42,966 nt of DNA from Gemmatimonadota bacterium (GTDB lineage: Bacteria; Gemmatimonadota; Gemmatimonadetes; Longimicrobiales; Gaopeijiaceae). Position numbers and translations under genes: made by a program. Location: contig JBBEBG010000004.1 in assembly GCA_040882465.1 (NCBI GenBank), positions 1 through 42,966 of the forward strand, in the 5' to 3' direction. Each line of letters begins with the position of its first letter. The stretch's first letter is position 1. The notes under the pieces were generated by a model, which was given only the letters and a program-made list of their open reading frames with translations, was not told where the DNA came from and searched no databases. This document shows positions 5,898 to 13,900 of this stretch, in pieces.

Positions 5898-6713
5898 ATG
5901 CCCTTTCTTCCCCTACGGTCCGTGCCCCTGCCGGATTCGACCCGGCGCGCCTACGACTCGTGGCTGAAGGCCCTCGACCGCGAGCTGGACCGTCCCGACT
6001 GCGACCGGAACGAATTGTGCCGGAAGGTCCTGACCGAAATCTATTACCCGGGATTGGCAGGCGCCGACCCGTCTTCGCTTCCCGAGGCGTCGCGGATCGC
6101 GCTCCTCCAGATGGATCCGAGGAATATCACTCTCGAGCCCGAGTACTACCAGGAAACGGACGCCGAAAAGTATGCGCGAACGAAGCCGTTGATCTGGCTC
6201 TGGGAGATGTTCGACAAGAGCGCGCTCGGAGAAAATGTGGACCTGGGCATCCGCTTTCGCCGGATCCTGGCCAAGAGGATTTTCCGAAAGTGCGGGAAGA
6301 ACTTCAAGGCCTTCCACTTCGTGAAGTTCTCCTTCGGTTACAACATCGAGGTGGGAGACGGGTGCGTCGTGCACCGGCACGTGCTCCTGGACGACCGGGG
6401 CGGGATCCGGCTGGGGAACGGAGTGAGCGTCGCGGACTTTGCGAACATCTATTCGCACACGCACGACATCGTGGACCCGCACCTGATCGAGAACCCCACG
6501 ACGATCATCGGGGACGGAGTGCGGATCACCTATCACGCGACAGTGCTGGCTGGCGTGCATGTGGCCGAACACTCGATGGTCGGCGCACTCGCGGTCGCGA
6601 CGCGCGACACGGAGCCGTATACCCTCCACCTCGGGATCCCGGCGAAGCCGGTTCGGAAAAAGCCCGAGGGGAAAAGGCAGCCGAGCCCGCCTGACCCGCT
6701 CGCGACAGACTAA
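5898..6713 (+). CDS. Left-handed beta-helix (hexapeptide) acyltransferase
   Basis: A 271-residue protein related to WcaF/maltose O-acetyltransferase-type enzymes, which move an acetyl or other acyl group from CoA to a sugar or similar hydroxyl. A helical N-terminal part of about 150 residues comes before the hexapeptide coils at about 150-255 (GYNIEVGDGCVVHRHVLLDD, GIRLGNGVSVADFANIYSH, TTIIGDGVRITYHATVLAG). THDIV supplies the catalytic-type histidine, and LGIPAKPVRKKP is the usual C-terminal signature of these transferases. AGGA lies about 7 nt before the ATG. The long N-terminal extension is unusual against the roughly 180-residue typical family member. The substrate is unknown. Confidence 0.85.
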   Translation: MPFLPLRSVPLPDSTRRAYDSWLKALDRELDRPDCDRNELCRKVLTEIYYPGLAGADPSSLPEASRIALLQMDPRNITLEPEYYQETDAEKYARTKPLIWLWEMFDKSALGENVDLGIRFRRILAKRIFRKCGKNFKAFHFVKFSFGYNIEVGDGCVVHRHVLLDDRGGIRLGNGVSVADFANIYSHTHDIVDPHLIENPTTIIGDGVRITYHATVLAGVHVAEHSMVGALAVATRDTEPYTLHLGIPAKPVRKKPEGKRQPSPPDPLATD

Positions 6714-6738
6714 GCCAATCGGGGAAGGACAGACGGGG

Positions 6739-6851
6739 GACGGGCAGAGGGTGGGAGCTGGCCGACCGTCCGGGAGCGGGGGAAGAAGGAGGGAAGCCCT
6801 CGAAGCAGTACCGCGTACGGCAGGGAGGCCGGCTCCCACCTTCTGCCCGTC
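6739..6851 (+). ncRNA. Hairpin element A, putative structured RNA or mobile hairpin
   Basis: Arms 6739-6763 and 6827-6851 pair over all 25 positions when read as plus-strand RNA; two of the pairs are G-U wobbles. The 63-nt core between them begins GACCGTCCGGGAGCGGGGGAA and ends ACGGCAGGGA. The core closely matches that of element B at 11707-11770. Inside the stem, GA faces CAGGGA as an asymmetric internal loop, then CCGT (6766-6769) can pair with ACGG (6817-6820). The element lies between two plus-strand genes. A simple terminator is unlikely: there is no T-run and the core is conserved. Confidence 0.55.
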
Positions 6852-6937
6852 GCCCGGGAATGTCGGCCCAGTTCTTCGGTTAGGACGCTCGCCCCGACCG
6901 GCGGCCTCCGCCCTCACGAATCTCGGACACTCGATCG

Positions 6938-10714: not shown

Positions 10715-10969
10715 GACAACCCTCGCTCTCAGGGGATCGGCGGACGAATGGCGACCGGGCCAATGTTGGGAAGATCTGCGGGGGATGCCAGTGGATCTCG
10801 ATTTCTGAGGCGTCCCGGTCGTGAAACGAGGGAATCGTAGACCCTGTCTCACCCTGTCCTCGATGCCCAGCGACTCACTACATTGGGAATCCCCTCGGAG
10901 TTTCCGTTGGGGCACTTCGCACACACCATCCCGCGGCTCCGCACGGAAGCCCGCGGAGGAGGAATGACG

Positions 10970-11635
10970 ATGGCTGGACCTCTCGCGATCGGGAGTGAAG
11001 CTCCCGATTTCACCGCTGAAACCACCGAGGGCCCGATTCGCTTTCACGATTGGCTCGGCGGCTCCTGGGGTGTCCTCTTCTCCCACCCGAAGGATTTCAC
11101 CCCGGTATGCACGACGGAGCTTGGCACCATGGCCCGCATCAAGCCCGAGTTCGACCGGCGTGGTGTGAAAATCATGGGGCTGAGCGTAGACCCGGTGGAG
11201 AGCCACAAGGGCTGGTCGAAGGACATCGAGGAGACGCAGGGGACGGCGCCGAACTACCCGATGATCGCGGATACGGACCTGAAGGTCTCGAAGTTGTACG
11301 GGATGCTTCCCTCGGAAGCAGGGGATAGTTGCGACGGACGGACCGCCGTGGACAACCAGACCGTCCGAAACGTCTACGTCATCGGGCCCGACAAGAAGAT
11401 CAAGCTCCTCATCTCTTACCCGATGAGCACGGGGAGGAACTTCGACGAGGTGCTTCGCGTCATCGATTCGATGCAGCTCACCGCGAACCACAAGGTCGCG
11501 ACCCCCGCGAATTGGAACAACGGCGACGAGGTGATCATTCTCCCCTCAGTGCAGGAAGCCGAGGCCAAGGAGCGCTTTCCCAACGGGTGGCGCGCCCCGA
11601 AGCCGTACCTCCGCTACGTCGAGCAACCGCGGTAG
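10970..11635 (+). CDS. 1-Cys peroxiredoxin (Prx6-type)
   Basis: A 221-residue thiol peroxidase that reduces hydrogen peroxide and alkyl peroxides. The peroxidatic cysteine is in HPKDFTPVCTTELG (C47), and the extended C-terminal region with NWNNGDEVIILPSV and FPNGWRAPKPYLRYV is typical of the Prx6 subfamily. No standard resolving cysteine is evident, though one more Cys occurs in AGDSCDG. Two ATGs are close together; I chose 10970 because AGGAGG (10957-10962) sits 7 nt before it, whereas the ATG at 10964 would almost touch the ribosome site. The 250 bp upstream is gene-free. Confidence 0.95.
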   Translation: MAGPLAIGSEAPDFTAETTEGPIRFHDWLGGSWGVLFSHPKDFTPVCTTELGTMARIKPEFDRRGVKIMGLSVDPVESHKGWSKDIEETQGTAPNYPMIADTDLKVSKLYGMLPSEAGDSCDGRTAVDNQTVRNVYVIGPDKKIKLLISYPMSTGRNFDEVLRVIDSMQLTANHKVATPANWNNGDEVIILPSVQEAEAKERFPNGWRAPKPYLRYVEQPR

Positions 11636-11660: not shown

Positions 11661-11670
11661 AAGTGAAAAG

Positions 11671-11806
11671 TAGGGCGAAGGGTTCGGGGGGGAGGCGAGC
11701 TCGGACGACCGTCCAGGAGCGGGGGAAAGAGGAGGATTGCGCCGATCCCCCGCACCGCGGATGGCAGGGAGTCCGAGCTCGCCTTTCCTCCGAACCCTTC
11801 GCCCTA
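11671..11806 (+). ncRNA. Hairpin element B, second copy of the element A family
   Basis: Arms 11671-11706 and 11771-11806 pair over all 36 positions as plus-strand RNA, with three G-U wobbles. The 64-nt core (11707-11770) begins GACCGTCCAGGAGCGGGGGAA and ends ATGGCAGGGA, nearly identical to element A at both ends. The arms differ in sequence from those of A but keep the pairing. The element fills the gap between the convergent peroxiredoxin and acs genes, and its right arm includes the acs stop codon (11804-11806). It could end transcription from both sides. Confidence 0.6.
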
Positions 11807-13762
11807 TCCTTCCCCCTCCTCGTACTTCTCCTTCAGCTGCCGCACCACCTCCGGATCCGCGAGCGTCGTCGTATCCCCGAGCGCTTTCCCTTCAGCGATG
11901 TCCCGGAGTAGCCGCCGCATGATCTTCCCGGAGCGTGTCTTCGGAAGATCCGCCGTGAAAAGCACGTCATCCGGCCGCGCGATCGCCCCGATCTTCGTCG
12001 CGACGTGGGCGCGGAGCTCCTTGACGAGCTCCTCCGAAGGAGAGCGCCCGTCCTTGAGCGTCACGAAGGCCGCGATCGCCTGACCTTTCAGGTCGTGCGC
12101 CTTCCCGACCACGGCCGCCTCCGCAACCGCCGGGTGATCCACCAGCGCGCTCTCCACCTCCATCGTTCCGATGCGGTGCCCCGCGACGTTCAGGACATCG
12201 TCCACCCGCCCGAGGACCCAGAAAAACCCGTCCTCTTCGCGCTTCGCGCCGTCACCAGGGAAATAGATGCCGTCCCACTTGGACCAATAGGTGTCCCGGT
12301 ATCGCTGGTCGTCCCCGTAGATCGTCCGGAGCATCGCGGGCCAGGGACGCGTGATCGCGAGGTAACCGGCGTTCACCTCCTGCCCGGCCTCGTTCAGGAT
12401 CGAGGCTTCGATACCCGGGAAGGGGAGCGTGGCGCTCCCCGGCCTGGTCTCGGTTACCCCCGGAAGGGGGGTAATCATGATCGCCCCCGTCTCCGTCTGC
12501 CACCACGTGTCCACGATCGGGCACCGCTCCGCCCCGATGAACTTGTGGTACCAGATCCAGGCTTCCGGATTGATCGGCTCACCCACGGTGCCGAGAAGGC
12601 GGAGCTGCGAGAGGTCGGACCTCTGGGGCCAATCCTCGCCCCATTTCATGAAGGCACGGATGGCGGTCGGCGCCGTGTAGAAGACCGTCACCCCGAACTT
12701 CTCGCAGAGACGCCAGAAACGCCCCCGATCGGGGAAGTCGGGCGCGCCTTCGTACATGAGGACGGTCGCGCCATTCGAGAGGGGTCCGTACACGATGTAG
12801 GAGTGCCCGGTGACCCAACCGACGTCCGCGGTACACCAGTAGACGTCGTCCTCCTTGAGGTCGAAGACCCACTTCGTGGTCGCGTAGACCTGCGTCAGGT
12901 AGCCCCCGGTGGTATGCACGACCCCCTTCGGTTTCCCCGTCGTCCCGGAGGTATAGAGGATGAAGAGGAGATCCTCCGAGTCCATCGGCTCGGGGTCACA
13001 CCCCCGTTCCACCTCTGCCAGGAGGTCGTGATACCAGAGATCCCGGCCCGGCTTCATCACAGTCTGCGTCGTGCGGGAGATGTCCCACCCGCGCGCGACG
13101 ACAACCACGTGTTCGATCGAAGGACAGCTCTCGAGCGCCTGGTCGGCATTTCGTTTGAGCGCGACGACGCTCCCTCGCCGGTACCCGCCGTCGGCGGTGA
13201 TCAGGAGCTTCGCCGTGGCGTCGTTGATCCGGTCCGAGAGCGACTCGGGGGAAAACCCGCCGAAGACCACCGAGTGAGGGGCCCCTATCCGCGCGCAGGC
13301 GAGCATCGCGATCGCCGCCTCCGGGATCATCGGCAGGTAGATCGCGACGCGGTCCCCTTTTTGGACGCCGAGGTCCTTCAGCGCCTGCGCGAAGCGCGAC
13401 ACTTCCCGGTGCAGGTCCCAATACGTGTAGGTGCGGACGTCCCCCGGCTCCCCCTCCCAGACGAGGGCGGCTTTGTTGCGACGCGCGCCCACGAGGTGAC
13501 GGTCGAGGCAGTTGTAGGAGACGTTGAGCTGTCCGCCCTCGAACCAGCGGGCGTGAGGCGGATTCCACTCGAGGACCATATCCCACTTCCGGAACCAGTC
13601 GAGCTCTTCGGCCCACGACGCCCAATACGCCTCTGGGTCGGCCTCGGCCCTCTCCCTGACGCCGTCGTCGGAGACGTGAGCCCCCTCCCTGAAGTCGTCC
13701 GGGGGTGCAAAGCGGCGGTCTTCGCGAAGGAGGTCGTCCAGCGTGCTGGCCGCGCGGGTCAT
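11804..13762 (-). CDS. acs: Acetyl-CoA synthetase
   Basis: A 652-residue AMP-forming acetate-CoA ligase that activates acetate to acetyl-adenylate and then acetyl-CoA. The signature motifs are intact: the P-loop [30 protein letters not shown], the acetyl pocket [13 protein letters not shown], the DGYFWVLGR-like hinge region ([20 protein letters not shown]) and the A10 lysine in TRSGKIMRR (K613), which is the residue regulated by acetylation in other bacteria. The ATG at 13762 has AGGAG at optimal spacing. A longer frame extends upstream but lacks homology to the family. The 3' end lies inside hairpin element B. Confidence 0.98.
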
Positions 13763-13900
13763 CCGAAGCTCCTGTCGGGCGGTTTGGTGCGGGGGTGCCG
13801 AGGGGGGGAGAGAGTAGGCAACCGAACCGCACGGGGGCAAGTCCGATCGGGTTCCGAGGGGCGGCTTGGCGGGCGGGTGGCCTCCTCCTTCAGGTGCGAT

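Follow-up and report, generated by a model that had tools for sequence, protein, structure and literature searches.

The genome of this Gemmatimonadota bacterium carries at least nine dispersed copies of a hairpin element in which a conserved core (GACCGTCC...AYGGYAGG) is held between long arms whose sequence is specific to each copy. Two copies, A and B, occur in the window (the whole 42,966-nt stretch of DNA analysed here, which is the complete contig C4) and seven are found elsewhere. The elements are about 108-138 bp long, with arms of 26-37 bp and a core of 54-64 nt. We think it somewhat probable that they represent a non-autonomous, lineage-specific hairpin element that occupies at least nine sites, prefers short gaps past stop codons, and has a plus-strand RNA fold that is under selection. 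The original prediction that element A founds a structured family is borne out, given nine copies that covary.

The stem of element A at 6739-6851 had been predicted to pair at 25 positions. All 25 pairs form, 23 as Watson-Crick and 2 as G-U pairs. The palindrome reaches 6734-6856 with a single mismatch: a G-rich 5' arm (30 bp, 6734..6763, plus strand) pairs with a C-rich 3' arm (30 bp, 6827..6856, plus strand) through 27 Watson-Crick and 2 G-U pairs, and the predicted minimum free energy is -96 kcal/mol (z = -9.8 vs shuffles). Between the arms lies the 63-nt conserved core (6764..6826, plus strand), which matches the shared core exactly, scores 90 bits with covariance model R1 and 87 bits with R2, and is laid out as GA / CC / GU / CCG / GGA / GCGG ... 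CCGC / GUA / CGG / CA / GG / GA. Element B (11670-11807) has 37 paired positions, 33 Watson-Crick and 4 G-U, between its 5' arm (37 bp, 11670..11706) and its 3' arm (11771..11807), with a folding z of -11. Its 64-nt core (11707..11770) was located by the core match and the covariance model, and all of these parts are on the plus strand. The core said to be common to A and B is indeed so: GACCGTCC-N-GGAGCGGGGGAA ... GGCAGGGA is identical in the two. Element A begins 20 nt past the stop codon of a hexapeptide-transferase-like gene (5898..6713, plus strand; Pfam Hexapep on the product, E 5e-6, narrowly below the cut-off). Element B begins 34 nt past the stop codon of a peroxiredoxin gene (10883..11635, plus strand; AhpC-TSA and 1-cysPrx_C domains), and its 3' arm runs over the stop codon of acs, the gene for acetyl-CoA synthetase (11804-13840, minus strand). 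A partial second peroxiredoxin gene, ~80% identical to the one in the window and with an in-frame TAG, occurs elsewhere in the genome (C28:87349-87693).

The remaining copies came from searches of the 41 contigs (3.53 Mb) of the genome. A core-pattern search returned copies C, D and E, covariance model R1, built on five copies, added F, G and H, and a two-part pattern search gave the ninth copy, I. With the nine-copy model R2, all nine score 68-94 bits in this genome and there is no other match up to E = 10. Copies A-E have cores of 63-64 nt and copies F-I shorter ones of 54-56 nt; G-I share a second core type (GACCGTCCGGGGGC ... GUACGGYAGG), and the sequence of F is near that of A-E. The arms are only ~48% identical between copies. 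Retention of the core at nine sites while the arms differ to this degree implies that the core is constrained, and the same divergence speaks against a recent mobile burst, which would have left near-identical arms: the copies are old, unless their arms have been remade.

The search for other hairpins in this genome covered stretches of it, such as the 113 kb surrounding the copies, where the nine elements are the sole hairpins with at least 16 net Watson-Crick pairs and a loop of at most 150 nt. A second hairpin family occurs on contig C7 (L136:11633-11801 and L137:13379-13541), with 26-28 bp arms (TAGTG...CGTCCCCG...TTG) and a loop of 111-113 nt that opens with AGCACCGAGGGT. Its arms differ between the two copies and match within each, and the L137 copy lies 7 nt past a stop codon. 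In 800 kb sampled from the relatives G025, G004 and G022, no long hairpin built around another core was similar to the element. G004 has four evenly spaced 188-bp hairpin units with 28-bp arms and a 132-nt loop (L113:8719-10068). Between H and I (L084:6900-7053, contig C36) there are degenerate direct repeats of the 5' half of the element (CACCGACCGTCGG..., GCCGAGCGTCCGG...), perhaps broken copies, and the 86-bp gap between the divergent D and C holds an 8-bp inverted repeat, TTGGGGAA/TTCCCCAA (L080:6735-6762).

All nine copies are extragenic save for 2-3-nt overlaps with stop codons, and for eight of them a stop codon is no more than 34 nt away, the element facing either way (H alone is farther off). 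Besides A and B, D lies 1 nt past a 95-aa ORF, C is 26 nt from the stop of an ABC-2 permease gene, E is 11 nt past an amino-acid-kinase (aspartokinase-like) gene, F is separated by 9 nt from the stop of a 2-hydroxyacid dehydrogenase gene and by 10 nt from that of mazG, G is at the stop of lepB, and I is 1 nt from the stop of a gene with a delta-aminolevulinic acid dehydratase domain. Five of the nine sit between convergent genes, and D/C and H/I are divergent neighbour pairs. Orientation relative to the abutting gene is mixed, with antisense the more common.

No copy was detected outside this genome. Covariance-model searches returned none from 77 other genomes of the family (R1), 153 other genomes of the order (R2) or about 394 other genomes of the phylum (R2), in a set where the genus is represented by this one genome; for each genome these searches scored a restricted set of candidates from a first look, and strongly diverged relatives may escape them. 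Laxer filters applied to 37 relatives yielded no copy either. Across 84,980 species the exact core pattern matched three times, always without arms and at the level of chance, and no copy was found in viral contigs (by core pattern), plasmids or phages. We set aside the matches to a short core pattern with one mismatch allowed in relatives, which are mostly chance in G+C-rich genomes and were obtained with controls too. The original prediction had looked to related genomes across the phylum for further copies, an expectation that failed, as the family was found in its own genome only. Its view that the element falls outside known RNA families stands: Rfam has no match in the window at the gathering threshold, and at relaxed thresholds gives only miRNA-like chance hairpins far below threshold. 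Overall, the evidence speaks for a hairpin element that is dispersed, restricted to this lineage and probably mobile, and not for a family of RNA genes found across the phylum.

One locus offers a direct comparison with relatives. Most relatives have, side by side and convergent, the two genes that we take from their sequences to be lepB and rlmN. Here their spacer is 189 nt long and element G starts at the lepB stop; in the 20 related genera where the positions of both stops were established, it ranges from -92 to +66 nt and lacks the element. The simplest reading is that the element was gained at this site in this lineage. Direct repeats of 8 bp, TCGAATAG, flank copy G (p = 0.013, one of nine such tests), and no target-site duplication was found at the other eight copies. 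In relatives, no acs adjoins the peroxiredoxin gene, so the Prx-acs order at element B allows no such comparison.

As a test of membership among structured non-coding RNAs, we compared covariation of paired positions with shuffled and slid controls, and it exceeds both. With P1 and CCGU/AYGG taken as the pairs, 98.2% of cells in the nine-copy alignment are paired, a value as high as which was reached in 0 of 500 shuffles, and slid structures are 41-54% paired. Two-sided change occurs in 12 of the 15 inner P1 pairs. RNAalifold prefers a core in which P1 is followed by GA facing GA, CC/GG, GU facing YA, and then CCR/YGG. The core pair at columns 25-72 covaries (G-C in five copies, A-U in three and G-U in one), and in A-E a GGA/GNA internal loop follows, and then GCGG/CCGC. 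The GA/GA opposition is kept in seven of nine copies (H has GA/AA and I has GA/UC). In one register, the tandem G.A beside P1 may resemble a kink-turn, with GA opposite GA by a C-G closing pair and extra unpaired 3'-strand nucleotides. Unlike a kink-turn, the element would require a 4-nt bulge, and the alternative register is predicted to give GA/GA and then a CC/GG helix. At positions 12-15 bp outward from the core, the 5' side is G in 8-9 of the nine copies, and the inner arm is otherwise mostly variable.

Two structural details of the original prediction hold in part. The region described as a GA/CAGGGA internal loop with a CCGU/AYGG helix is conserved, but CCGU/AYGG is an alternative register to the RNAalifold core. 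Covariation, first proposed from the outer stems GGGCAGAGGGT in A and GGGCGAAGGGT in B, is much better borne out on the nine-copy alignment; that particular comparison is weak because the segments start 22 vs 34 bp from the core and aligning them requires a 12-bp paired indel. Covariation alone is no proof of RNA function, since template switching at the DNA level perfects inverted repeats as well (PMC8794818). Of the arm positions that depart from Watson-Crick pairing, nine are G-U and one is A-C (p = 0.011, symmetric counting), a bias of modest weight because the counts are small. Judged from sequence, this G-U excess and the conserved non-Watson-Crick core favour a putative RNA-level role of the plus strand.

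Could the element be an RNA of the host? A multicopy regulatory or processing RNA, either a structured RNA in 3' UTRs or a small RNA with a protein-binding core, known from one lineage, is possible, if unlikely. The core is kept at all nine sites despite arm divergence, and the preserved non-Watson-Crick positions and the G-U bias would be expected of such an RNA. However, the sites have no gene function in common, six copies are antisense to the nearest-abutting gene, scans for sigma-70 promoters at A and C/D returned no promoter-like signal, and the element is absent from the relatives searched. A bidirectional terminator or 3'-end hairpin between genes, with the core merely hitch-hiking, we regard as distinctly unlikely. 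Placement directly past stop codons, often between convergent genes, and long G+C-rich stems are what this reading would predict, but the loop is 54-64 nt rather than 3-8 nt, no U-tract follows the stems, and scans at A and C/D called no intrinsic terminator, so we rejected assignment to that class. In addition, there are only nine copies in 3.5 Mb, and termination has no need of a conserved core. Very improbable, in our assessment, is a pure DNA palindrome lacking RNA function, whose arms arise and stay perfect through template switching during replication: such switching makes and repairs stems (PMC8794818; PMC8604942), pairing in copy I runs deeper into the core (GACC/GGTC) as such correction would produce, and the second, unrelated hairpin family also has copy-specific, self-matching arms, but a G.A-mismatched core survives in most copies beside near-perfect arms, G-U outnumbers A-C by 9:1, and dispersal to nine sites requires another process.

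Known classes of dispersed repeat resemble the element in some respects. Like REP and REPIN sequences, it is short, non-coding, dispersed, extragenic, hairpin-forming, at times paired in inverted orientation (D/C and H/I), and thought to be mobile. REPINs are RAYT-mobilised miniature elements whose inverted ends are conserved and whose middle varies (PMC3116915); the arrangement here is the reverse, with a conserved middle and variable ends, and there are only nine copies. We rejected membership of this class, as conserved inverted terminal REPs are absent and the genome has no match to RAYT (Y1_Tnp, PF01797), a search whose control matched in 5 of 14 genomes. The 92 SLS stem-loop families of bacterial genomes are intergenic, share a common predicted secondary structure within each family, and are mostly of unknown function (PMC2267715). 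The element is likewise intergenic and structured, but SLS families were derived by sequence clustering, whereas its arms share little sequence and the family is defined by core and pairing. It also has the small size, non-coding nature, inverted repeats and gene-adjacent insertion of MITEs. Derivation from an insertion sequence as a MITE was rejected because conserved terminal inverted repeats are missing, the outer ends differing in all copies; unlike MITEs, moreover, target duplication is inconsistent, with an 8-bp repeat only at G.

The reading that we favour, a small non-autonomous element with a selected plus-strand fold, draws its first part from dispersal, position and the empty site. 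At only about 108-138 bp, the element is too short to code for a mobilising protein. No mobilising gene was identified in the assembly, where Y1/RAYT transposases are absent, and neither a terminal repeat nor a consistent target-site duplication was found among the nine copies, which counts against a mobile element. Each copy may have been inserted by transposition with a factor supplied in trans, or by template-switch copying. It would then be read within 3' UTR transcripts and could fold as a rod consisting of the long P1, tandem G.A pairs, CC/GG and CCR/YGG. Selection may act on this plus-strand fold, which might, for instance, serve to protect or process 3' ends, or be bound by a protein or by the mobilising factor itself. 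Such selection would preserve the core and accept any arm sequence that pairs, and DNA template switching, with its capacity to create and repair stems, probably hastens the co-change of both arms. We tentatively extend this to a possibility in which we place little confidence: the inner core may be the heritable, recognised part and the long arms may be rewritten per site or over time, through template switching or copying directed by the core, making this a new class of mobile or dispersed genetic element, defined by pairing and not by sequence, that would act via a folded RNA with a tandem-G.A core.

Dispersed hairpin repeats in bacteria are usually recognised through conserved ends or similarity over their whole length. 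When the core is fixed and the arms vary freely yet always match, a family evades sequence clustering. The copies also provide a natural test of compensatory change, in which selection on RNA may be weighed against template switching during replication. The element is a marker family of one lineage so far, and the clean empty site in relatives makes its mode of spread testable.
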